Part shown: piece after piece, positions 3,501 to 52,334 of the stretch | How positions within the stretch are numbered: the first letter of the stretch is position 1 | Layout: the number at the start of each line of letters is the position of its first letter | Assembly (NCBI RefSeq): GCF_005239135.1 | Contig: NZ_QKNX01000005.1 | Span: 62,001 to 126,000, forward strand | Direction of reading: 5' to 3' | DNA length: 64,000 nt | Source of the DNA: Natronomonas salsuginis | Lineage (GTDB): Archaea > Halobacteriota > Halobacteria > Halobacteriales > Haloarculaceae | Notes under the pieces: generated by a model | What the model was told of the DNA's origin: nothing | The model's database searches: none | The model's input: the letters and a program-made list of their open reading frames with translations, nothing else | Program-made: the position numbers and the translations under genes

Positions 3501-4094
3501 AATTCAGATAACGTTTCCCGCTGGAGAGGTGAACTCGGAGTTCTCCCAGTGACGACAGAGAGACACACTCTCTCAGCGGCTTTCCCTGGGATAAGCCTTG
3601 ACGTGAGGCGATTGTATCATTCGTGCTTCTCCTACGGCGCGGGGTACCTCAAAGTGGCCGTGATTATCGGTAATCATGACCAATTGGTACCGAAGGTTAT
3701 TCCTGCGAATCCAACGGACATAGCCCCGTCAAACACGTAAATCTCTATTTTGATCATTCTATAAATCATACATTGCTATATCGAATCTACCAGAGTCTTG
3801 CTACACAACCTCGGAGGATGGATCTGATGCGTGCCTTCGTTTCGCTATTAAAACATACTATTATTTATGTTTTTTGAGTCCACCCATATATTATAACATC
3901 GACACGATATCTACTACAGAGTGTGTCTGAGTAGGAGAGAGCAACAACGACATAAACACGACCTGCGTACCAAGGTATAAGCGATTGATACTCTACCACT
4001 TGACCACTTTGGGAAACAAAGAGTGTACCATCATCTCTATTTATATCGATCTGATATCAGACAGACAGACAGACGGACCCACCGATACTGAGAT
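3501..4094. other. Gene-free stretch and leader of the P1B ATPase
   Basis: No gene is supported. It holds a 32-base segment (3806-3837) repeated with three mismatches at 52172-52203, an AT-rich stretch at 3840-3900, a TATA-like TTTATAT near 4039-4045 about 50 bases before the next ATG, and a GACA microsatellite. Confidence 0.5.
4060..4077. repeat. GACA tetranucleotide microsatellite
   Basis: About 4.5 units of GACA lie in the leader of the ATPase gene at 4095, between its TATA-like element and the start codon. Slippage here could alter leader length. Confidence 0.7.
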
Positions 4095-40743: not shown

Positions 40744-41009
40744 TTCGTGGTATTACAGGACGAACATGCAACTCTCAGAGAATTTCAACAGAGCCAATTC
40801 CGTTGTTCTGGCTCTCTTTGTGCTTTACGTGGGTGCTCTTCTCCAGTAACACTGTGAGGTATTGACCACAATCAAGTCAGCATATATCACTTGAATAGAA
40901 TTCCAATCTAGCTGTAAATACGTGTTCTACTCAACGTTTCCACTCAAATCGTTGATTTTGTAACCTTCCTCAGTATATTGTATGAGCACCTCTGACGATT
41001 CACCTTCTA

Positions 41010-42605
41010 GTGAAAACTTTTGAATGCACTCTGTGCGAAGCGTACCAGTTAGGGATCACCATCCGTAACGAGTTCAAAGAAACCGATCTCGTCACTGCGT
41101 TCGAGAACCTCGATCACTCGATAGACGCGATCGAAGACGAGTATCCAGCGTGGCATCCTGCGCCACTCTCCTTTCGAGCAATGATCCTCTCGTTCGTTTT
41201 CATGGAGATCACCGGAGATTCGTACGCCGAGTTTTCTCGACGACTCACCCGGCAACCGGAAGTCGCCACTATTCTCGGCTTCACCCGAGTACCTGACGAA
41301 TCGGCCTTCTCACGAGCGTGGCGAAATCGATTCGACGACGAGACCCACGAATATGTCCACGCTGCTGCCCACTTTGTTATCAAAGAAGTTCACGATCGCG
41401 ATATCTCAGCGTCTGAGGTTCGCCCCAAGAAAGAGATCGTCGATGGTACTGAAGAAAACATAGACTCGGTAGAAGACGAATCATTCTCACAGAACGAAAT
41501 CGTCCAGATAACACGCCTCGCGCGTGATCACGCCTTCGGTCATTTCGACTCTGATCGGGCGTCGAACGCCTCTTACGAGGACACGCAATTTTTCGAGCTA
41601 CAGACGTTCATGGGGATGGTTCGGTGCGGAACCGCGCAGGGAGCGACTCGCTTCCAGTACCGGCGGGGTGAAGAGTACAGCCCACATGGCGACACCCACC
41701 TTCGCACCGTCAAGCAGTTCGATTCTGAAGAGCTCGTGAACGGGTTCAATGAGACGATGGATCGCTTACTCTCCGTGATCGCCTCTGAAGCATCGTTCCG
41801 TCGGCCGGTTACCGCTGCGATCGACATCACGACTATCCCCTATTACGGGGACGTTGAGGACATGCCGATGGTCAGCGGGACGAAGGATAGAGACAGTCGG
41901 GCCTTCAAATTCGCAACGCTCTCGATCATCGGACAGAATATCCCGCTCGTTCTTGCCGTGGAACCGGTTCGAGAAAGTTCTGAATGGGACGATAACCCGT
42001 CGAATCAGATACATCGTACTGTGCGACGGCTTGTTCGACGAGCGAAAGAACACGTTCCAATCGAGACAGTACTCTGTGACCGAGAGTTTGACTCGATACA
42101 AGTGTTCCAGACGCTCTCAAACCTCGATGTGAACTACCTCATTCCGAAGCGGGTCTCTAGCTCCGAACGGGAGGTGTTTGACCAAATGGACAAAGACGAC
42201 CAGGAAGTCGCTGTGGAGTCGGCCTCTGTCCACGTAGAATCTGGATCGCATCCAATGCGGCTCCTGTACGTGCCGTCGACGAGTGGGGAGGGAACGGCCG
42301 TCTTCGCGACGAATCTCCGAGTCGGACCCGACGAGGCCGAGACGTTCTGTCAGCGCTACAGCCGCCGGTGGCAGATCGAGAGTGAGTACAAATCGATCAA
42401 AGGTGACTTTCTCGCGAAGACCTCCTCGAAAGATTACCGTGTTCGCCTATTCTACTTCGTGTTCGCGGTCCTCTTGTACAATATCTGGCGGCTCACCGAC
42501 TTCCTGCTGAAAGCGGGTGTGGGAGGTGAGATGGACTACGCACCAGTGTTGACTGCGGGTGAGTGTGTTGAGCTCGTTGCCTCGTCGTTGATTCCACACG
42601 ACTAA
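41010..42605 (+). CDS. Large DDE transposase (IS4-like fold)
   Basis: 531 residues from a GTG. Homologous to 43012-44793: both share DRASNA(S/T)Y, AIDIT (first Asp), a C-terminal (L/F)(C/L)DR.F (second Asp) and IE.EYK.IK (Glu), followed by SSKDYRVRLFYFVFAVLLYN, a hydrophobic C-terminal part. I cannot assign an exact ISfinder family or see convincing terminal repeats. It lies just right of the arsC element. Confidence 0.75.
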   Translation: MKTFECTLCEAYQLGITIRNEFKETDLVTAFENLDHSIDAIEDEYPAWHPAPLSFRAMILSFVFMEITGDSYAEFSRRLTRQPEVATILGFTRVPDESAFSRAWRNRFDDETHEYVHAAAHFVIKEVHDRDISASEVRPKKEIVDGTEENIDSVEDESFSQNEIVQITRLARDHAFGHFDSDRASNASYEDTQFFELQTFMGMVRCGTAQGATRFQYRRGEEYSPHGDTHLRTVKQFDSEELVNGFNETMDRLLSVIASEASFRRPVTAAIDITTIPYYGDVEDMPMVSGTKDRDSRAFKFATLSIIGQNIPLVLAVEPVRESSEWDDNPSNQIHRTVRRLVRRAKEHVPIETVLCDREFDSIQVFQTLSNLDVNYLIPKRVSSSEREVFDQMDKDDQEVAVESASVHVESGSHPMRLLYVPSTSGEGTAVFATNLRVGPDEAETFCQRYSRRWQIESEYKSIKGDFLAKTSSKDYRVRLFYFVFAVLLYNIWRLTDFLLKAGVGGEMDYAPVLTAGECVELVASSLIPHD

Positions 42606-43011
42606 CCCGCTGAGATCTCGCTGGGTCCGCCGCTCAAGAGTGACAACCGTATCCAGCAGCGCCAAAATCCACGCAATTTCGTACGCTCGTCTGGTAGTTC
42701 GAGAGTAAAGATTCAAAACCGATGCCTGACCGGTGAGAATCACCACGATTTGATGGCGGTTCGATCCAAAACTGGTCTATCCTCCGAAACTGTGTGGGTA
42801 GACCCAACCTGACTGTTTGGCATTTCTACAAGCGAAACAAGGGGATCACCAGCGTTTCAGGAGTCCGACCAGATCGTGAAGACGGAACTGCAGGGAGAAC
42901 TGCCAGTTAGAGTACCATTGGGTCACAAATCAGTCGAAAATCGGGAGAAATCACTACTCAGAAAATACAGCTGCCGCTCCGGGGATTGGCTACCACAGTG
43001 AAAACCGCTGT
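42606..43011. other. Intergenic between two transposase genes
   Basis: Probably contains the right end of the first transposon and the left end of the second unit, but I find no clear inverted repeat or target duplication. Confidence 0.4.
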
Positions 43012-44793
43012 TCAGTCAGGAGGGGTGAACAGGCAGAACGCGACCAACTCGATAAGCTCGCCCGCAAGGATCGGCGGGTGCTCACCGAGATCGACATCCA
43101 CCGCGTCTCGAAGGATGAAGTTCGCCATACGCCACACGTTGTACAGCAGCGTTCCAATCACGAAGTACAGGAACCGAATCCGGTAATCCTTCGACGCCGA
43201 CGTCGGCAGGAAGTGCTTCTTGATGGTCTTGTACTCGTTCTCGATCTCCATCCGCTGGCTGTACTGGCCGAGCAACGCTTCCGCGCGGTGATGGTCAACG
43301 TGCTCGTTGATCGTGAACACCGCGTACTTGTCCTCGTCCTTCTTCGACGGCGTGTACACGTACGTAATGTCGTGCTCACGACCGTCGTATTCGTGCGTGC
43401 CGTGCCCGATACGACTGTTGTACACGTCGTGGTCCTTGATCTCCTCGATGTTCTCCTTATCTACCTTCGCGCGAGCTGGCTTTCCGAGTACGTACAGTAA
43501 CTCACGCCGGTCGATAACGTCACGGGTCTCCTTGCTACTGAATCCACGGTCGAGGAACACCTTGTGAATGTCCACGTGACGGGAAGCCTGCTCTAGCAAG
43601 CTCTCCACAATATCAGCGCGAGACGTCCGCTCGATGTCCCATCCCATCTCGTTTTCCCACCGTCGCTGATCACGCACAGGTTCTACACCGAGGACAATCG
43701 GTGTGTTCTCAGCGATAATCGTGATCGTGGCGAACTTGTATCCACGCTCATCGCTATCCTTGAGCCCAGATACCAAGTCGGGGTGGTCAGGATCTATCAG
43801 TTTCTCCTTCCCTTTGATGGTCACCTTGATGGGGGTCTTGTCGGACTTGCGGGCCTCCTTCTTGGACATGAACGGCGAAGCATAGAAATTCCATGCGGTG
43901 ATGTCAATCGCCGCGTGAACCGGCTCTGTGAATCCTGCCTCAGCGTAGTCCTCATCGGTGAGCTCGTTCAGGATGTTCTCAACGCCTGCGTGGAACGGCT
44001 CCAGTACTTCGTCACGGATTCGCTTCCACTCCGGTTGCTGTTTTCCCGTCACGAATTCGTCGAATGTGAGTTGGGATTCCGGTTTGGCGATCTTCTTCAT
44101 CGTGCGGTTATGCGACGACCCGTGCGGGACCTTCTCCCGTTCACTGAGCCGGGCGAACCGTCGTGAAGCGGTCGTTGTCCCGGCACGAGACATGTTCAGG
44201 TAGCCTTGCCGTTCGAAGTACGCTTCCAACGGGTACGTCGCGTTACTCGCGCGGTCCGCGGTGAACTCACTGAACCCGAGGTCAGTCGCGCGCTTCACCG
44301 CATCCATAATCTCCGCTTCACTGACCCGGTCGTGCTGGACGTCTTCCGGATCAAGCGCGGGTTCATTCGTCCGGATCACATCGTGCTCGGCACACACCGT
44401 TCGAATGGCTTCAGCAGCGTCTCGTAGTAGCTTGCGCTCTGCCGGGTCGAATCGATTGCGCTTGTTGTGACTGATGATCTGCTGAGAGATCGGCCGGTCG
44501 AAGCCGAGACGCAGGTACACGTACGCAGCCCCGCGTAGCCGGCGCGCGAGCTCTGACTGATTGAACTCGCGCGCGTACTTGTAGAGGAACAACCGAACCA
44601 TCGATTCCAAGTCGAACTTCGCACGACCTGGATCATCGTACCCGGTGAACCAGTCCTCATCGATGTCGAGATTCGTGATGACGCGGGTGATGTGGTCGTG
44701 AATGTGGCACAAGTCCTCTGTCTGCTCCTCGATGGAGCTCAGGATCTCATCATAGTAACTGTGATCGTCGGTAGCCGTCACCGACACCACCAC
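43012..44793 (-). CDS. Large DDE transposase-like protein in a nuclease/AAA+ module
   Basis: 593 residues from a run of GTG codons at 44793. Catalytic-type residues: AIDITAWNFY, VFLDRGFSS and IENEYKTIKKHF; DRASNATY is shared with 41010-42605, to which it is homologous but longer, with an inserted segment between first and second Asp. Downstream genes encode a winged-helix protein, a Cas4-like nuclease and an Orc1/Cdc6-like ATPase. Its likely promoter lies at about 44920 with the 16-base motif shared by the nuclease and ATPase genes. Confidence 0.72.
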   Translation of the reverse strand: MVVSVTATDDHSYYDEILSSIEEQTEDLCHIHDHITRVITNLDIDEDWFTGYDDPGRAKFDLESMVRLFLYKYAREFNQSELARRLRGAAYVYLRLGFDRPISQQIISHNKRNRFDPAERKLLRDAAEAIRTVCAEHDVIRTNEPALDPEDVQHDRVSEAEIMDAVKRATDLGFSEFTADRASNATYPLEAYFERQGYLNMSRAGTTTASRRFARLSEREKVPHGSSHNRTMKKIAKPESQLTFDEFVTGKQQPEWKRIRDEVLEPFHAGVENILNELTDEDYAEAGFTEPVHAAIDITAWNFYASPFMSKKEARKSDKTPIKVTIKGKEKLIDPDHPDLVSGLKDSDERGYKFATITIIAENTPIVLGVEPVRDQRRWENEMGWDIERTSRADIVESLLEQASRHVDIHKVFLDRGFSSKETRDVIDRRELLYVLGKPARAKVDKENIEEIKDHDVYNSRIGHGTHEYDGREHDITYVYTPSKKDEDKYAVFTINEHVDHHRAEALLGQYSQRMEIENEYKTIKKHFLPTSASKDYRIRFLYFVIGTLLYNVWRMANFILRDAVDVDLGEHPPILAGELIELVAFCLFTPPD

Positions 44794-44897
44794 CGTGAAT
44801 CACGTCCCGATTGAGTAACACCGGAGCGAACAGGCATCCACGCGTGGCTCCCGAACTGCGACCGGATCGGAACCGGGCCGGGCAGGGAACCGAGCAT
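44781..44897 (-). CDS. Possible 38-residue leader peptide
   Basis: An ATG at 44897 lies at leaderless distance from the TATA-like AAAATATG near 44925-44932. The frame (MLGSLPGPVPIRSQ...) ends at TGA overlapping the GTG start of the transposase. It may be translated for coupling, or the true transposase start may differ. Confidence 0.35.
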
Positions 44898-44940
44898 GGC
44901 GTGCCAGAGTGTTACTTTGAATCGAAGCATATTTTCGCGC

Positions 44941-44956
44941 GTGCGATTTCCGAATT
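44941..44956. promoter_or_regulatory. Shared upstream motif, site 1 (transposase promoter)
   Basis: GTGCGATTTCCGAATT, 44-59 bases upstream of the ATG at 44897. Matches sites at 46839 and 47941. Just upstream of a TATA-like element on the minus strand. Confidence 0.6.
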
Positions 44957-45098
44957 GCCAAATAAACGTACGTACTGCGTGGTTTAAGCCGAGAACCGTA
45001 CAGAGGAATCCGGAAATGACTGCGGTTTAGACCAAAGTATAATGCGATTCGAATCTATCTTCAGTTTCTAAGGGGGTCCACGCGAAACGATGCGGTGA

Positions 45099-45635
45099 AT
45101 GCCCGACTCTGAGTCGATTAGTGATTTCCTTCAGAAACGTGGCGCACTCGGTATTCTTACGCTCCTCTCAACGGCGGACGGACGACGATTCAAACACTTG
45201 AACGAGTACCTCACGATCAGCTCGTCAACGCTCACTCTCCGTCTCACTGAAGCCCGTGGACTGGGGCTCGTGGTTCCCGGGATGGAGACTGATGAAACTA
45301 GTGTGAACAACGAATACCGAATCACGACGCGCGGGAAACGCGTTGCACGCCAGATGGAGAGTCAGGGTCTCATCCACGCCGTTCAGACGATCCTTGACTA
45401 CCAGCAAGACGTTGAAAGCGAACTACCTGATTTACTCGATTGGGTCGAAGATCACAAAGATGAATTAGCACGGTTGGATGACCGAACACCGTATCAAGAT
45501 CCGTTTGGAGAGTCCGTCGTTGATACCGGGGATGAACCAGAATACGACGATGAGTTCATGATTGAGGAGGATTTCGGCAGAGTTGAGCAGTGGGGCACTG
45601 AACCAGATGAGGAAGAAAACGACGCAGACGAGTAG
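45099..45635 (+). CDS. Winged-helix DNA-binding protein
   Basis: 178 residues. The winged helix spans about residues 8-85 (GALGILTLLSTADGRRFKHLNEYLTISSSTLTLRLTEARGLGLV), similar to HxlR/PadR-like regulators, followed by an acidic tail ending EEENDADE. Divergent from the transposase-like gene and in the middle of the nuclease/AAA+ module. It is a candidate binder of the shared motif, or a DNA-targeting component. Confidence 0.7.
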   Translation: MPDSESISDFLQKRGALGILTLLSTADGRRFKHLNEYLTISSSTLTLRLTEARGLGLVVPGMETDETSVNNEYRITTRGKRVARQMESQGLIHAVQTILDYQQDVESELPDLLDWVEDHKDELARLDDRTPYQDPFGESVVDTGDEPEYDDEFMIEEDFGRVEQWGTEPDEEENDADE

Positions 45636-45664
45636 GATCTTGAGTACCTAGTCTGGTATTGTTT

Positions 45665-46798
45665 TCACTCACGGTCAGCGTTAAGTTGCGAACCTGCTTC
45701 AGGACCACTCAACGTAACGAGGTCTCCTGCTTCAGCACAATCCGGGCAGAAGGGGAGATCGTCTGTGTTGCCGTCCCAATCAACGGTATTCCATTCGAAT
45801 GAGCCACCACATCCAGAACACCGCCAATTGTAGACTCCGTACTCCTCGGCAAGATCAGGGAATTGGTGAGCGAGTGTCGGTGTGAGACGCGCATCACGCT
45901 CCTTGTGTGCGTCTATGTACTCTTGGAGGTTGTGCCGGTCGTACTGATCGAACACGGGGAGCAGACCGTCAGAGCCGGTATCTGCGTACGGTGAATCAGC
46001 CTCACCGCAGCGATGCTTGAACGAACAGTAGTTGCACTCCCAGTCGCGCTCAGGTATGGCTGGAGGGAGTTCACATGCTTGTTCGTACTCGGTTTGAGTA
46101 GCCATCCATTCTACAACGCGCTCCCAGAACACGGGATCGAATTCGATGTGAAACGCTTCAATGTCCAGTGTTGTCCGACTCCCGTACACAACCATCCCGT
46201 CCGTGATTGAGTGGTCGTACTCGTTGTTAAGGGCGTATAGGTACGCGTGGAGTTGCGCCCGGTGGTGCGGTTTCGGGCCTGATAAATGATCGACGGAGGT
46301 CGTCGTTTTAATCTCCGTCAGGAACAACGGCTCTGCATCGGCATTCACGATTGCAGGGTCAGTTGACCCGCGCACTTGGAGTGAAGTACCATCGACGACG
46401 AACTCGGTGTCAATCCAGAGTGAGTTCGCTACGTACGTTTCAGGAGTGGTGATGTGCTGCAGGAATGGGACGATAACCTGTTCTTCAAACTCGGAGCCAA
46501 TCCAGAACAGGCCTTCCGGCGGGGTGCCTTCGCGTGGCGCGTTCTTCCGGGCGTAGCTGGCTTTCCGATGACATTGAAGGAGTTTGCTCGGTGAATGACG
46601 CTCTGGGTCTTTTGGTGGCGATGGCCCGTTGAAATACGCCTTCCCTTCGAGGATGTTCGTCTGGAATTGCTGTTCACTGTACCAATCGTTGAACGCACGA
46701 TTCGTGACGCGCTGACGCACGATCTGTTGCGCTTCCTGGTCGGGATTCGGAGACGGCGAGTCCGCTCCGATAGGTGTGTCTCTGGATGGACCGCTCAT
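45665..46798 (-). CDS. Cas4/AddB-like PD-(D/E)XK nuclease with zinc ribbon
   Basis: 377 residues from the ATG at 46798; the longer frame to 46879 would cross the promoter motif at 46839. Features in order: LLQCHRKASY (first Cys), GSEFE, RGSTDPAI (Asp), FLTEIKTTT (E-x-K), HRAQLHAYLYAL (QxxxY), CNYCSFKHRC (three further Cys of a likely Fe-S cluster), then a C-terminal zinc ribbon CSGCGG...CPDC. RecB-type nucleases of this kind cut or resect DNA. In its setting it could play the part of TnsA (inference). Confidence 0.8.
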   Translation of the reverse strand: MSGPSRDTPIGADSPSPNPDQEAQQIVRQRVTNRAFNDWYSEQQFQTNILEGKAYFNGPSPPKDPERHSPSKLLQCHRKASYARKNAPREGTPPEGLFWIGSEFEEQVIVPFLQHITTPETYVANSLWIDTEFVVDGTSLQVRGSTDPAIVNADAEPLFLTEIKTTTSVDHLSGPKPHHRAQLHAYLYALNNEYDHSITDGMVVYGSRTTLDIEAFHIEFDPVFWERVVEWMATQTEYEQACELPPAIPERDWECNYCSFKHRCGEADSPYADTGSDGLLPVFDQYDRHNLQEYIDAHKERDARLTPTLAHQFPDLAEEYGVYNWRCSGCGGSFEWNTVDWDGNTDDLPFCPDCAEAGDLVTLSGPEAGSQLNADRE

Positions 46799-46838
46799 CA
46801 CGATTCGAGTGAGAAGACGGGAGACAATAGGCAGCCGC

Positions 46839-46854
46839 GTGTAATTTCCGAATC
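46839..46854. promoter_or_regulatory. Shared upstream motif, site 2 (nuclease promoter)
   Basis: GTGTAATTTCCGAATC, 41-56 bases upstream of the nuclease ATG at 46798, with an AT-rich element (CTATTGTC, minus) between. Confidence 0.6.
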
Positions 46855-46895
46855 CGTCACCAATCGACCAGGTGAGCACGCTGAGCGGTGTCGCG

Positions 46896-47900
46896 TTATG
46901 CTCTCGTCCGGTAGATTCGGGCCTTTGTGTTCCCTTCAGCGCGGATCAGATTGTAGTGTTCGAGTTTAGATAGATAATTCCGGACCATCCGCTTGGTTTT
47001 CGGGTCACTCGCAGTAGCACAATACGTCTCATAGAGGTTCTGTGGGGTAATCTCCCCGTGCTCCGTGATGATGTTGTACAGGAGTTCTTGGTCCGTTGTG
47101 AGTCGGTCTATGGTTTTCTGCTTGATTTCCGATTTCGCTTCCGGAGTCTCTTCCTGAATAATGTCGGCGGTGATCTCATCGACTGACTCGTTTTTCGCTT
47201 TCCGTGCTGATCGACGAAGGATACCGATTGCAACACGAGCGTCTCCACCCGCGTTTGCTGCAATCAACTCTAATCGAGGGGTGTCGATAACCCCATCTGT
47301 GAGTCCCCACCGAACGCGATCACTGAGAATAGCAACGAGTTCTCCCTCCCAGTATGAGCGGAAACGAATGCGTTCACAGTCAGCAAGACGACTGTTCAAC
47401 CGGTCATCAACAGCCGCGAAGAGTTCCTCTTCATCGTTGGAGATAAGGATCATCGTAAGATGCGGAATCCGGTATAGATCATACAGTAGCGACTTGTCTT
47501 CTAACTGGTCTACTTCATCCAGAATGACGACGTATGGCGTCTCGTCAGCCTTCCGAAGCCGTTCAAGCAGGACGTCCTTCGGTGTGGATTGCCGGTGAAC
47601 ATCAATGGTTCGGCCGATCCCATCCAGCAGCCTGTACAGGGTTTTGAAGCGGCTGTGGTCCTCCCAGCAGTTCACGTACTGGTAATTCAGGCTAACCACT
47701 TCCTCACGCAACTGTTCTACCAAGAACTGTGCAATACAGGTCTTGCCCGCACCTGACGGGCCGTGGAGAAGTGCCGGGTCAGCTCGTTGTCCTTCCGTAA
47801 TGGGGATGAGAACGCTGGAAAGGTAGTTGACTTCGGCATCTCGGTGTTGCACCTCCCGAGGGATGAATTCTGGTTGCAGGACGCGTGCATCTGTTATCAT
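46896..47900 (-). CDS. Orc1/Cdc6-like AAA+ ATPase
   Basis: 334 residues. Walker A GPSGAGKT, Walker B VVILDEVDQ, sensor ILISND, Arg-rich lid GGDARVAIGILRRSARKA, and a C-terminal winged helix (ELLYNIITEHGEITPQNLYETY). Typical haloarchaeal Orc1 proteins are around 400 residues, so this is a short relative. It may initiate plasmid replication; equally, as an AAA+ protein next to a transposase and a nuclease it may act as a TnsC-like regulator. I see no origin-type repeats nearby. Confidence 0.82.
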   Translation of the reverse strand: MITDARVLQPEFIPREVQHRDAEVNYLSSVLIPITEGQRADPALLHGPSGAGKTCIAQFLVEQLREEVVSLNYQYVNCWEDHSRFKTLYRLLDGIGRTIDVHRQSTPKDVLLERLRKADETPYVVILDEVDQLEDKSLLYDLYRIPHLTMILISNDEEELFAAVDDRLNSRLADCERIRFRSYWEGELVAILSDRVRWGLTDGVIDTPRLELIAANAGGDARVAIGILRRSARKAKNESVDEITADIIQEETPEAKSEIKQKTIDRLTTDQELLYNIITEHGEITPQNLYETYCATASDPKTKRMVRNYLSKLEHYNLIRAEGNTKARIYRTRA

Positions 47901-47940
47901 GGGTGCGTCGACGGGAACTGCCAGGCAAATAAATGGAAGT

Positions 47941-47956
47941 GTGTGATTTCCGAATT
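47941..47956. promoter_or_regulatory. Shared upstream motif, site 3 (Orc-like promoter)
   Basis: GTGTGATTTCCGAATT, 41-56 bases upstream of the ATG at 47900; the TATA-like ATTTATTT lies at 47927-47934. Same distance as in the nuclease gene. Confidence 0.65.
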
Positions 47957-48185
47957 TCCGGAACGAACCAACCTTAAAGATTATCAGCTATCATCAGGTG
48001 AAGCCCGCAGATCGGTCAGTTGACGACCAAGCCCAGTTGAGCGCCAGTGCGGATGTGCTGCGTCACTTACTACCGAATCCAGGTTCGGATAGTGTAACGC
48101 CATCCCGACACCGGTAACTCCCGAAAGGCCGATTCAAGCGTAGTATCCGTCGGCCAGTACCATCCCGAGTACACCTGCGCCTCTT

Positions 48186-50090
48186 TTAGCCTCGTCTCAC
48201 TCGAAGTCCGTTCCCGATGGCCAGCAGTTCGGAGCCTTCATGCGCGACTACTGCAAGAGCGATACCGAGTACACCGAGCAGCGCTCCGGGGATGAGTACG
48301 GCCAACACGAGCAGCGAGAACACGATGTTCTGACGGCTAATCCCCTGTGCACGCTTGCCGAGCCGAAGCGCATACGTCACCTTCGTGATATCATCCGCCA
48401 TCAGGGCGATGTCAGCAGCCTCAATCGCAGCATCCGTTCCTGCAGTTCCCATAGCGATGCCAACCGTGGCTTGGGCCAATGCCGGTGCATCATTGATCCC
48501 GTCGCCGACCATCCCGACCGCTTCGTACTTCTTCGTGAGTTCCTTGACAGCATCGACCTTTTCCTCCGGTTTCAGGTCCGCTCGGACATCGTCAATCCCG
48601 AGTTCTGCTGCGATTGCCTGCGCCGTTTCTTCATTGTCTCCCGTGAGCATGAGAACCTCAACGCCCATCTCGTGAAGCTCACGAATGACGTCTTTCGCCT
48701 CTGGTCGCGGTTCATCACGGAGTGCAATGACCCCCATGATCCGGTCAGGTGTTCCAACAAGTACGACGGTCTTCCCCTCGTTTCGAAGGTCTTCAACCTC
48801 TGAAAACCCTTCTACGTCGAGGTCGAACCGCTCGAAAAGCCCTGGCTTCCCCACATAGACGGTTTCCTCCATGAGTTGGGCTTGCGCGCCGTAGCCGGTG
48901 ATCGAGCTGAATTCGGACACTTCGGTCTGTTCGAGTCCGCGTTCAGCCGCGGCGTTCATGATCGCTTCTCCAAGGTGGTGTTCGGAGTATTGTTCGACGC
49001 TCGCTGCCTGTCTAAGCACGTCGTCTTCGGTACCCTCAAACGCAATCACATCCGTAACCACTGGTTCACCCCGCGTGAGAGTTCCAGTCTTGTCGAAGGC
49101 GATGGCCTCGATTTTCCCGAGGTTCTCAAGGTGGATACCCCCCTTGACAAGCACGCCTTCACGTCCAGCGCGCCCGATACCGGATGCGATGGCGATGGGC
49201 GTAGACATGACCAAGGCACAAGGGGCAGCCGCGACGAGCAGAACGATTGCGCGTCGTGCCCAGTAGTCCGGCAGGGCGATAACGAACGGTGCTATCATGA
49301 GCCCGAGGGCAGCGAGGAGAACAATCGGCGAGTAGACGCCGCCAAATCTCTCGATGAACAGCTGGGACTTCCCCTTTTCTTCCTGTGCTTCTTCGACGAG
49401 GTGGATCATCTTCGAGAGCGTGTTGTCCTCGAAGGTGGTGGTCGCTTCAATGTCGAGGACTCCTTCCTGATTGACGGTGCCTGCGAACACCTGATCGCCC
49501 TCTTGTTTATCGACGGCGGTGGATTCGCCGGTGACCGCTGCCTGATCGACCGTGGAGCGACCATCGACGACACGCCCGTCGGTCGGGATAGATTCGCCAG
49601 GTTTGACGCGAAACAGGTCGCCGATGTCGAGTTCTCGTGCAGAGACCATTTGCGTGGTTCCGTCTGTGATGAGACGCGCTTCTTCAGGCGCGAGATCGAG
49701 CAAGCTTCGAATTGAGGCGCGGGTCCGTGCGAACGTGTATTCCTCAACGCCTTCCGCAGCGCCATACAGAATGACGAGGAACGCTGCTTCCTCCCACAGG
49801 CCGAGCGCGGCTGCGCCACCGGTCGCGGCTAACATCAGAATCTCAATATCGATTTCGTATTCTTCAACCAACTCTTCGAACCCTTCTTGCGCCCAGTGGA
49901 AACCTCCGAGCAGCATTGCTACTACGTACAGGCCATTTTCGGCCAGTAATGGGAGGTAGTCGAAGAGGCTGAGTCCGAAGGTGAGAATCGCTATCATGCC
50001 TGCGATGAGCGCATTTCGTATCGGTGGGAAGAGGTACCACTGTCCGCTCCACTGTGTGTTGTTTTCCTCCGTGTCGTCCGTATCACTCAT
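48186..50090 (-). CDS. P1B-4-like heavy-metal ATPase with APC motif
   Basis: 634 residues, no N-terminal HMA domain. Core motifs: AVTGES, A289-P290-C291 (AAPCALVMSTP), DKTGTLTRGE, SEHHLGEA, GDGINDAPAL and a final HEGSELLAIGNGLR. Lack of an HMA domain, six or so membrane segments and the HEGS signature fit the P1B-4 group (Co, Zn, Cd), where TM4 usually carries SPC; here it is APC. The promoter holds the near-palindrome TTGGAATATTCTAA, also found before the gene at 51285. Confidence 0.82.
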   Translation of the reverse strand: MSDTDDTEENNTQWSGQWYLFPPIRNALIAGMIAILTFGLSLFDYLPLLAENGLYVVAMLLGGFHWAQEGFEELVEEYEIDIEILMLAATGGAAALGLWEEAAFLVILYGAAEGVEEYTFARTRASIRSLLDLAPEEARLITDGTTQMVSARELDIGDLFRVKPGESIPTDGRVVDGRSTVDQAAVTGESTAVDKQEGDQVFAGTVNQEGVLDIEATTTFEDNTLSKMIHLVEEAQEEKGKSQLFIERFGGVYSPIVLLAALGLMIAPFVIALPDYWARRAIVLLVAAAPCALVMSTPIAIASGIGRAGREGVLVKGGIHLENLGKIEAIAFDKTGTLTRGEPVVTDVIAFEGTEDDVLRQAASVEQYSEHHLGEAIMNAAAERGLEQTEVSEFSSITGYGAQAQLMEETVYVGKPGLFERFDLDVEGFSEVEDLRNEGKTVVLVGTPDRIMGVIALRDEPRPEAKDVIRELHEMGVEVLMLTGDNEETAQAIAAELGIDDVRADLKPEEKVDAVKELTKKYEAVGMVGDGINDAPALAQATVGIAMGTAGTDAAIEAADIALMADDITKVTYALRLGKRAQGISRQNIVFSLLVLAVLIPGALLGVLGIALAVVAHEGSELLAIGNGLRVRRG

Positions 50091-50127
50091 ACTGGTAGAG
50101 TAGAGGACTGACAGGATAAGACTTAAT

Positions 50128-50141
50128 TTGGAATATTCTAA
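50128..50141. promoter_or_regulatory. Palindromic operator TTGGAATATTCTAA (ATPase promoter)
   Basis: One mismatch from the perfect palindrome at 51323-51336, and placed 38-51 bases upstream of the ATG at 50090, exactly as in the other promoter. Sits just upstream of a TATA-like TTAAGTCTTA. Confidence 0.65.
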
Positions 50142-50162
50142 AAGCGAGTTAGAGTATGCTAA

Positions 50163-50912
50163 TCACGAGGTGGGGTCTGAGGGTGAAACCGGATCGTGAT
50201 TCATGTACTGCTTGATGATTTCGGCTTCAGCCCGACGTACACGGTACGTGAGCGTTGACCGGGGGAGGCCGAGTTCTTCGGCAAGTTCACCGAGATCAAT
50301 CTCCCGAGGGGTGTTGTAAAACCCATGGTGAACAGCAGCGGTTAGCGCCTCGCGCTGTTCACGGGTCAGCGTACCCTCCTCAGCGGAGAACGTGGCAGTA
50401 TTCGTTGCTGAAAGCCCCGTCAGCCGGATGATTTCTACATTGACGTCAGCCGAGAGTTCTGCGTGTAAGGCGTCGAAGAAACCGTGGATATCGGCGTCTT
50501 CAGGATGGATGATACGCCAGGTGTGACGGCGCTGTTCATGCTGTGTTTCGAAGAGCAATCCATCACCGAGATGCTCAAGCGCGAGGTGCGGGATGGACGT
50601 ACAAACGGGTGTTCGTTGCCAGTACGTGTAAAGGACGAGCGTATCGTCCGTCTCATCGAGAACCTCTGTTTCGGAGTCCGCTCCACACGGTTCAGTAGCA
50701 AGACAGTCTGCGTAGTAGTCGGCAGTGAGAAACGCGTCTTCGATAGCCGAGAGAGCGTCGGGTGAGCCAGTTGCATGGTCAACGCGCCAGAGGCTATCTG
50801 CTGTGGCATGGAGAGACAGCGACCGGACCCGAGCATCGGGGAAATCAGCCAACGTATCCGCAAGCGTATTCCACCCTGGATCGTAATCAAGGGCGAAAAC
50901 GAGTTCTCTCAT
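50163..50912 (-). CDS. Bat-type HTH-10 transcriptional regulator
   Basis: About 249 residues from the ATG at 50912 (MRELVFALDY); 50933 is an alternative start. A ligand-sensing N-terminal region is followed by the HTH-10 domain characteristic of bacterio-opsin activator relatives (LTREQREALTAAVHHGFYNTPR, DLGELAEELGLPRSTLTYRVRRAE). Lies between two genes whose promoters share a palindrome, so it is a candidate regulator of both, probably responding to metal. Confidence 0.82.
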   Translation of the reverse strand: MRELVFALDYDPGWNTLADTLADFPDARVRSLSLHATADSLWRVDHATGSPDALSAIEDAFLTADYYADCLATEPCGADSETEVLDETDDTLVLYTYWQRTPVCTSIPHLALEHLGDGLLFETQHEQRRHTWRIIHPEDADIHGFFDALHAELSADVNVEIIRLTGLSATNTATFSAEEGTLTREQREALTAAVHHGFYNTPREIDLGELAEELGLPRSTLTYRVRRAEAEIIKQYMNHDPVSPSDPTS

Positions 50913-51009
50913 GCCCGACGGAAGGAGATCCATCGATAAAATACACCGGACTTCTACCCGGTTAGGCCGTTCGTCGCTCTTCAAAGGATTATGAACGCGT
51001 ACAGGCTCG

Positions 51010-51285
51010 TTAGATCGGGTCATCTTGGGCGTGAGTTTCTGCCATTCGCTTGGCTTCAGCTGCGTACTGTTTGCGTTCGGCTTCATCCTCGACAGCACCC
51101 AAGTTGTCTGGATCAACATCCAGTGCAGCGGTCGTATCGCGCATATCTGTGAAGCTCGTCAGCGCACGCTCTTTTCTGAAGTATTGCTTGCCATCTGGGG
51201 TTGCGTAGACGAGGATAATCAAGTTCTGTTCGTCGTCAGAATACGTTCGCTCGACCAACCAGACACGCTCCGTGTCGTCTTCCAT
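51010..51285 (-). CDS. Small acidic protein of unknown function
   Basis: 91 residues from the ATG at 51285, chosen because it lies 38 bases from the palindromic operator as in the ATPase gene. Reads like a compact alpha/beta protein (VWLVERTYSDDEQNLIILVYATPDGKQYFRKERAL) with an acidic helical tail. No family recognised. The shared operator suggests co-regulation with the P1B-4-like pump, perhaps as metal chaperone or sensor. Confidence 0.65.
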   Translation of the reverse strand: MEDDTERVWLVERTYSDDEQNLIILVYATPDGKQYFRKERALTSFTDMRDTTAALDVDPDNLGAVEDEAERKQYAAEAKRMAETHAQDDPI

Positions 51286-51322
51286 AGCTGGTTTTAGGTG
51301 GACTAGCCTGATAGGGCTTAAG

Positions 51323-51336
51323 TTGGAATATTCCAA
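51323..51336. promoter_or_regulatory. Perfect palindromic operator TTGGAATATTCCAA
   Basis: A 14-base perfect palindrome 38-51 bases upstream of the ATG at 51285. Paired with the near-identical site at 50128-50141. Confidence 0.7.
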
Positions 51337-51457
51337 ACCCAGGTTTACGCGGAGTGCAAACCATCTCTGGTGCCTGAAAGAGGGCAAGATTCTGAATCTT
51401 TCAGGCACTTTCCCGTGTGAGATCCTCGCGGTAGTTGCGGTCGGGAATCACTCAAAT

Positions 51458-51958
51458 CTACATGTACGTGACGTAGTTGTCAATCACGTCCTCAACGACA
51501 TCGAGACGGTACTCGGTGATGTCCCACTCAGCCGCTGTTCGACGTATCTCTGTTGTTCGCTCGGTGTTGTCGATCCTAGTAGCATGTTCACGGAGGCCCT
51601 CAGGTGAATTCACTTCGTACTCCTTCTGCCACGCTTCGATTTGAGCGTAGAGATTTTCTTTCAAATCGAGGAGCCCGTCGGAATCGTGCTCATCCAAGAG
51701 CTCACGGACTACTTGGAATCGCTGATAGATCGGGTCAGCAGCGTACGCCTTTGTCCCTTTATTGTTGAATTCGAGAAGGACCGTCATCTTAACGAGGCGG
51801 TTGAGATGTTCACGAGCAGTGCGTTCAGAGACGCTTGCCTCTGCCGCAATCCATGAAGCTGATCGGGGGGTCGAAAGGGACTGGCTGACTGCCTGAACTC
51901 TGTCGAAGGCGCTCGCATGTTTCCTCCACGCCTCAGTACCCGGTTCTGAGTCAGCCAT
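51458..51958 (-). CDS. Winged-helix regulator, DUF7342-like
   Basis: 166 residues. N-terminal TEAWRKHASAFDRVQAVSQSL, then HTH (SASWIAAEASVSERTAREHLNRLVKMTVLLEF), a helical linker and a C-terminal domain. Resembles haloarchaeal DUF7342/TrmB-like regulators. Another candidate binder of the palindromes. Confidence 0.75.
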   Translation of the reverse strand: MADSEPGTEAWRKHASAFDRVQAVSQSLSTPRSASWIAAEASVSERTAREHLNRLVKMTVLLEFNNKGTKAYAADPIYQRFQVVRELLDEHDSDGLLDLKENLYAQIEAWQKEYEVNSPEGLREHATRIDNTERTTEIRRTAAEWDITEYRLDVVEDVIDNYVTYM

Positions 51959-52334
51959 AGCAGCCAGTAATAGGCAGAATGCAATAAGCAGTTCCCAAAC
52001 TCAACCTCTTGGTGCGAGCGAACTCAAAATGGGGTGCCGTCTGAAACCTATCAGAATTCGGGCGTTACGGCCGGATTTCGGCTCATTTGCGGGAGAGACG
52101 AACCGATCACCCCCTATCATGTTAGCGAACTAGTGATTTGTAGAAATCCAAACTGCGAAGTTGGGGTAGCACAGCCTCGGAGGATGGAATTGATGCGTGC
52201 CTTCTGTTACGATTCATCTGTTCTGAATCGAAATCGAGACTGATCTCCATTGTGGGCTTTGCGCTGGTTACATTTCCAGAATATCTCGAATGTCGAGCTC
52301 TCCGTTCAGCAAAACGCACGCTCCGCGGTCTATT
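51959..52334. other. Intergenic with a repeat shared with the left end
   Basis: No convincing gene. Contains 52172-52203, a near-copy of 3806-3837; in one frame both encode QPRRM(D/E)LMRAF, so it may be a relic of a gene family or mobile element. Confidence 0.45.

Follow-up and report, generated by a model that had tools for sequence, protein, structure and literature searches.

A haloarchaeal transposon carrying an Orc1/Cdc6-family ATPase and a Cas4-like nuclease that share a promoter box with its transposase

In a stretch of 64,000 nucleotides from Natronomonas salsuginis (contig NZ_QKNX01000005.1, positions 62,001 to 126,000; here called the window, whose own coordinates are used below), four genes encode a transposase, a winged-helix protein, a Cas4-like nuclease and an AAA+ ATPase of the Orc1/Cdc6 family. 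Do they belong to one mobile element, and what would a relative of replication initiators do in it? An earlier note, made from the sequence alone, described them as a module of Tn7-like composition ending at position 47956, either a targeted transposon or a domesticated defence or replication module. The four genes and their domains are as described there, and profile matches agree:

43012 to 44793, minus strand: DDE transposase, 593 amino acids, catalytic D297, D415 and E518, with Y511, R514 and E518 of the YREK signature
45099 to 45635, plus strand: HxlR/MarR-type winged-helix protein (HxlR-type domain match), divergent from the transposase
45665 to 46798, minus strand: Cas4-like PD-(D/E)XK iron-sulphur (Fe-S) nuclease with a zinc ribbon, 377 amino acids; the longest open reading frame extends to 46879, and the ATG at 46798 is probably the start
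46896 to 47900, minus strand: Orc1/Cdc6-family AAA+ ATPase, 334 amino acids, Walker A and B intact

The element extends beyond the proposed end of the module. It occupies 42803 to 52165 (9,363 bp), with the four genes inside, and it possesses the terminal inverted repeats that the earlier note had missed (score 38 versus a shuffled maximum of 25). The right-end sequence, which is the point of divergence between identical copies in relatives, was found about 190 bp past the transposase, and its partner lies at 52136 to 52165, past the cargo genes. The boundaries are as follows:

42803 to 52165, minus strand: whole transposon, left end at 52165 and right end at 42803, from the inverted terminal repeats and the match to a Halorutilus relative
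42803 to 42840, minus strand: right end, terminal inverted repeat CCCAACCTGACTGTTTGGCATTTCTACAAGC (given for the plus strand)
52130 to 52165, minus strand: left end, terminal inverted repeat CCCAACTTCGCAGTTTGGATTTCTACAAATC (given for the minus strand)
42798 to 42802, no strand: possible target duplication GTAGA, four of five positions as in GTAGC and weak on its own
52166 to 52170, no strand: possible target duplication GTAGC, on the other side of the element

Two Halococcus dombrowskii plasmids show the same end sequence: they have in common an identical block of 11,710 bp, which holds a lone relative of the transposase and is bounded by inverted ends; a target duplication is lacking on one side there, and the flanks look exchanged between the two copies. 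The Halorutilus relative measures 11,418 bp and is flanked by a perfect 5-bp duplication (AGAGT). Its ends match those of the window element at 85% over 80 bp and 72% over 108 bp, the four-gene block is 87% identical in DNA over 4.9 kb, and a metal-ATPase cargo is common to both, in inverted order in Halorutilus. A Halapricum relative of 19,163 bp has a perfect 6-bp duplication (GAAGTT), and reading of the flanks by eye gave TCCAGA in Salinigranum, GAGCAC in Halobacterium BOL4-2 and CGCACA in Halorubrum, so that duplications in relatives are 5–6 bp long. Among the group-2 elements, the left end of L011 scored above the shuffled maximum and that of L009 below it, the latter with the duplication CGCACA. 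The outer part of a 51–56 bp inverted repeat in the window was rejected as part of the element ends, because the Halorutilus and Halorhabdus relatives do not have it and because on the left side it belongs to an adjoining insertion sequence. Terminal inverted repeats in the window and perfect target duplications in the Halorutilus and Halapricum relatives make it very likely that the locus is a DDE transposon with defined ends. The conserved ends and target duplications that the earlier note had proposed to locate are present in the relatives, and the duplication at the window copy is imperfect.

The four genes also co-occur in other genomes, as the earlier note had proposed to check. Their order, with orc and the nuclease pointing towards the winged-helix gene and the latter divergent from the transposase, recurs on plasmids and chromosomes of Halobacterium, Halococcus, Natronorubrum, Halosimplex, Halorubrum, Halapricum, Halorutilus and strain DL31 (L014 is one rearranged case), and the divergent winged-helix/transposase pair is kept in most relatives. 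A transposase-led survey of 292 genomes gave 21 loci with enough flank, and an Orc of the window-type family lies within about 16 kb in 14 of them by hand tally, where chance would give about 0.3%, or about 5% if a 20-fold enrichment on plasmids is allowed for; the P-values of this association treat related loci as independent and are indicative only. Haloarchaeal plasmids are full of insertion sequences, and the transposase could in principle be one that landed beside an unrelated plasmid orc operon. This explanation was rejected on the co-occurrence, the common ends and a shared promoter box, which leave it next to no probability.

The promoter box, which follows the pattern TTCGGAA[AG][CT]NNC[AC]C and is named by TTCGGAAATnnCAC, is found three times within the module:

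44941 to 44959, minus strand: promoter box TTCGGAAATCGCAC, upstream of the transposase
46839 to 46857, minus strand: promoter box TTCGGAAATTACAC, upstream of the nuclease
47941 to 47959, minus strand: promoter box TTCGGAAATCACAC, upstream of orc; the limit of homology between elements

The exact sequence ATTTCCGAATTNCC has only two occurrences in the window, in the promoters of the transposase and orc. In relatives the box was found upstream of orc 13 times, of the nuclease 10 times and of the transposase 14 times, and Orc-bearing elements contain 38 matches in 36 kb of upstream sequence versus 30 in the other roughly 820 kb. The shared motif of the earlier note thus holds for three of the genes; the winged-helix gene has a weak variant only. 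A search for the box in front of the lone transposases L059 and L061 found none. At L060, the orc promoter and the first 46 codons stand directly before the transposase, an arrangement that is a deletion relic. Some orc genes that lie in no recognised transposon (L019, L020, L002 and L018) are likewise preceded by the box. The distribution of the box suggests that orc, nuclease and transposase probably form one regulon, and that Orc, or something always present with Orc, may bind the box.

The Orc protein scores over the cut-off of TIGR02928 and has the lid, with a weak match to the C-terminal winged helix, and Walker A (GPSGAGKT), Walker B (LDE) and the GDAR arginine are conserved in 28 of its relatives. 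It could be a replication initiator that maintains the element or its host plasmid, the box being an origin site bound by Orc. Its family, the presence of the box before orc in relatives outside transposons and the reported link between haloarchaeal orc origins and nearby transposases (Wu et al. 2012, PMC3528665) are consistent with this. However, no origin repeats were found upstream of orc and no conserved region past the box, homology stopping just after it in 10 loci and ending at the box in all compared loci; the box also stands before the nuclease and the transposase, and for roughly a third of the orc genes in haloarchaea no adjacent origin was reported (PMC3528665). Thus the locus resembles orc-adjacent haloarchaeal origins in its Orc family member and nearby transposase, and differs from them in lacking adjacent origin repeats and in placing Orc, probably, in the regulon of the transposase. 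An initiator role is decidedly unlikely, a plasmid origin at orc was rejected since neither repeats nor a conserved region lie upstream, and the origin-flanked orc that the earlier note had named as contrary evidence was not seen.

A second Orc family, about 54% identical to the first, is represented by L196:8850-9878 (C3:112888-113877 of the Natronomonas salsuginis genome) and L020, and many haloarchaeal plasmids carry a member. Its members in Natronomonas salsuginis and on pNG600 of Haloarcula marismortui are near-identical, with a related box upstream.

Is the element then related to Tn7? The transposase matches Pfam DDE_Tnp_1 and DUF772, both over cut-off, and its D297, D415, Y511, R514 and E518 are kept in at least 95% of 42 relatives. 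The Y-(2)-R-(3)-E-(6)-K spacing agrees with IS4-type enzymes, its lysine being read in the window protein only. Judged from these residues, it is an IS4-type DDE enzyme with the YREK signature and an intact triad. It falls outside the ISH3 family proper (NCBIfam NF033541, 75.7 bits versus a cut-off of 225); ISH3/IS4-type haloarchaeal insertion sequences have a related DDE domain and the YREK signature, whereas the present element is larger and has accessory genes and cargo.

The nuclease scores over the cut-off for PDDEXK_1 and under it for NCBIfam cas4 (E 7e-10). Its Fe-S-type cysteines (C76, C255, C258 and C264) and zinc-ribbon cysteines (C327, C330, C351 and C354), noticed earlier from the sequence, are invariant in 13 relatives, as are D147, E162-x-K164 and the QxxxY motif Q182-Y186; it thus has the PD-(D/E)XK core, QxxxY and four cysteines of Cas4/RecB-like Fe-S nucleases. 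The best structural match of its predicted model (mean predicted local distance difference test score 72) is Cas4 SSO0001 (PDB 4ic1), followed by MGME1, EXO5 and others, and no TnsA is among the 50 best matches. Like SSO0001, it has one plus three Fe-S cysteines in addition to core and QxxxY; unlike it, it has an extra N-terminal region and the C-terminal zinc ribbon. As far as the predicted fold goes, the nuclease is Cas4/EXO5-like, not TnsA-like. It is not a CRISPR-associated Cas4 by TIGR00372 (39.1 bits versus a cut-off of 65), and no cas genes, cas1 and cas2 included, were noticed among the annotated neighbours examined.

The earlier note had itself pointed out that the transposase fold and the Orc family are not those of Tn7. 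No TnsB model in Pfam or NCBIfam matches the transposase, which is related to IS4 and ISH3; the nuclease has a Cas4/EXO5/MGME1 fold rather than that of TnsA; and an AAA+ protein is present, but of the Orc1/Cdc6 family rather than TnsC/TniB. Nor were homologues of TnsB/TniA, TniQ or TnsA found in the element. A genuine relationship to Tn7 was accordingly rejected on transposase, nuclease and AAA+ family. Of the Tn7-like composition, the conjunction of transposase, nuclease and AAA+ protein stands, and membership of Tn7 or its mechanism is not supported.

The transposases linked to orc and nuclease are spread over several clades with good support, and in one of these the identity to the window transposase is only about 27%. 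The Orcs of these diverse transposases group together, with that of Halobacterium sp. GN101 (group 2) inside the Halapricum/window/Halorutilus group of a tree in which many nodes are weakly supported. Since the transposases are diverse and the Orcs group together, the orc-nuclease cassette has probably been exchanged between transposon backbones. A nuclease subfamily 41–55% identical to that of the window occurs without a window-type Orc close by in L035 to L056 and in L016, a Haloarcula marina plasmid where the adjoining gene has the annotation recombinase family protein. On pNRC200 of Halobacterium NRC-1 (L018), a plasmid orc beside a truncated nuclease is a decayed relative of the cassette.

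Orc and nuclease might instead be ordinary cargo, for example a pair for defence or exclusion of competitors, on a self-sufficient transposon. Lone elements do move without them, members of the nuclease family are also found apart from orc, in one case next to a serine-type recombinase, and there is weak similarity to defence AAA proteins. However, the transposase has the same box in Orc elements and lacks it in lone elements, and the association is repeated in many lineages, whose other cargo differs. A search with defence models returned Cas4 nuclease models and marginal AAA matches only, no known anti-phage system. We therefore regard plain cargo as very unlikely.

Where do these elements insert? 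A 20-bp motif (consensus ATAAATCATATACCGCTATATCAAAT) lies 33–36 bp from the left-end core, with up to three mismatches, in 9 of 19 left ends (P ~4e-32, a value that ignores non-independence of the loci); the left end of L191 fits by eye, which makes 10 of 19. The motif is on the right-end side in eight more loci, from group-2 and some other elements. Insertion in relatives is 20–24 bp from it, beside tyrosine recombinases. Of 145 genomes, 105 contain the motif, while a reversed control gave hardly any matches. The motif often adjoins XerC/D-like recombinase genes and has the dyad ATATA-CCGC-TATAT. Archaeal dif sites consist of two 11-nt arms and a 6-nt spacer (PMC8371274). The target motif resembles them and may be a recombination site. 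A pre-insertion site is found in Halobacterium L087, where ...TTTCGAGCAC-AGATTCTG... is uninterrupted with one GAGCAC; at the equivalent site BOL4-2 has a lone element with GAGCAC on both sides. A second pre-insertion site comes from GN101: its sequence and that of L087 agree exactly as far as the right end of the GN101 four-gene element, and the evidence is one-sided because the left side of that element is rearranged. Target specificity is thus supported for the family, with insertion at a fixed distance seen in relatives and not at the window copy. Of the alternatives in the earlier note, the targeted transposon is therefore favoured for the family, and there is no evidence for defence. Comparison with relatives lacking nuclease and ATPase, also proposed there, showed that such elements share both the target sites and the type of duplication.

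In GN101 (L011:9193-10735) two dif-like motifs that face outwards flank a tyrosine recombinase gene, and about 20 bp beyond each of them lies the end of a different transposon. In L197 and L198 a chromosomal XerC/D-like gene follows a small gene (DUF5805 in L197), with outward-facing dif-like motifs around, possibly a haloarchaeal dif region. The window itself holds a tyrosine recombinase remnant at 2592 to 2843 and, about 1 kb away, a dif-like motif with two mismatches at 3761 to 3780.

Taken together, it is likely that the locus unites transposon anatomy with Orc and nuclease as co-regulated accessory factors. That the two are such factors, and not an obligate TnsABC-like core, is a tentative proposition, put somewhat below an even chance. 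The transposase would cut and join the ends. Since lone elements find the same targets, it is also the likelier one to pick the target, perhaps via a recombinase that sits on the dif-like site. The divergent winged-helix protein, likely a repressor, would repress the transposase. Orc would bind the box, a proposal that draws on the boxes in front of orc genes outside transposons. With the help of ATP it would regulate or license, tying the supply of transposase to the state of replication. The nuclease may trim or process DNA ends in transposition or donor repair. A fuller version, in which Orc1/Cdc6 and the Cas4-like nuclease license and process YREK transposition into dif-like sites, an archaeal multi-protein targeted transposition coupled to replication, is possible and rather doubtful.

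Several observations weigh against the proposed reading. The window copy has a duplication of only 4/5 bp (GTAGA/GTAGC) and is single in its genome; no dif-like motif lies beside it or the Halorutilus relative. The left ends of several Orc-bearing relatives were looked for and not found, nor were those of the group-2 elements L008 and L014. Lone elements might receive the missing functions in trans from Orc elements elsewhere in the same cell, and the winged-helix protein is a rival candidate for binding the box.

IS4-type DDE transposases generally cut both strands themselves. This counts against a functional analogue of Tn7/Tn5053, in which Orc would be a target selector or activator like TnsC/MuB and the nuclease would cut the non-transferred strand like TnsA. 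Gene composition, regulation in common with the transposase, targeted insertion and intact ATPase motifs fit such an analogue. On the other hand, elements without orc or nuclease use the same sites with equal duplication length, the cassette is met again with transposases of about 27% identity, unlike a co-adapted complex, and the nuclease fold is not that of TnsA. We consider the analogue unlikely, with some probability left to a direct TnsC/TnsA-like role because lone elements may be helped in trans. Like Tn5053/Tn402 and Tn7, the element is a multi-gene targeted transposon with an AAA+ protein and cargo, and like Tn5053 its relatives insert at resolution-like sites; unlike them, its AAA+ protein is Orc1/Cdc6 and targeting needs no AAA+ gene in cis.

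The IS1202 family (ISAjo2 type; PMC10132070) similarly combines a DDE transposase and short terminal inverted repeats with insertion at a fixed short distance from its targets. Those are pdif/dif sites of the Xer type, to which the dif-like motif beside tyrosine recombinases may correspond here, and target finding with a recombinase at the site has been proposed for the family. Its target duplications are 5 bp, against 5–6 bp here. These elements are bacterial, 1.5 kb long and single-gene with a TnsB-like transposase (PMC10132070), whereas the haloarchaeal element has a YREK transposase, cargo, winged helix, Orc and Cas4-like nuclease.

An Orc1/Cdc6-like ATPase and a Cas4-like nuclease under the promoter signal of a transposase, or an element of this kind, were not found described in the open-access literature, subscription papers being outside the search. 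By these findings, transposons house a large group of Orc1/Cdc6 proteins of haloarchaea whose usual annotation is replication initiator, and the prediction of origins from orc genes should change accordingly. They also point to an archaeal, apparently unrelated counterpart of the bacterial transposons that hunt dif/res sites, and to a widespread dif-like site in haloarchaea. Whether a replication initiator can act as AAA+ partner or regulator of a transposase becomes a testable question.

The 4.2 kb past orc are cargo, a P-type metal ATPase with regulators, and a separate insertion sequence lies outside the element:

48186 to 50090, minus strand: heavy-metal P-type ATPase, inverted within the Halorutilus element
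50163 to 51119, minus strand: HTH_10 (HVO_2928-type) regulator, true start probably downstream
51010 to 51408, minus strand: small hypothetical protein, no family match
51458 to 51958, minus strand: DUF7342 winged-helix protein (domain match)
40946 to 42794, plus strand: separate insertion sequence with a 531-amino-acid transposase, its right end abutting that of the transposon

The insertion sequence has a second genomic copy, 83% identical over the stretch. About 20 bp resembling its end lie just outside the left end of the transposon (52166 to 52190), and insertion-sequence-like ends therefore face the transposon from both sides.

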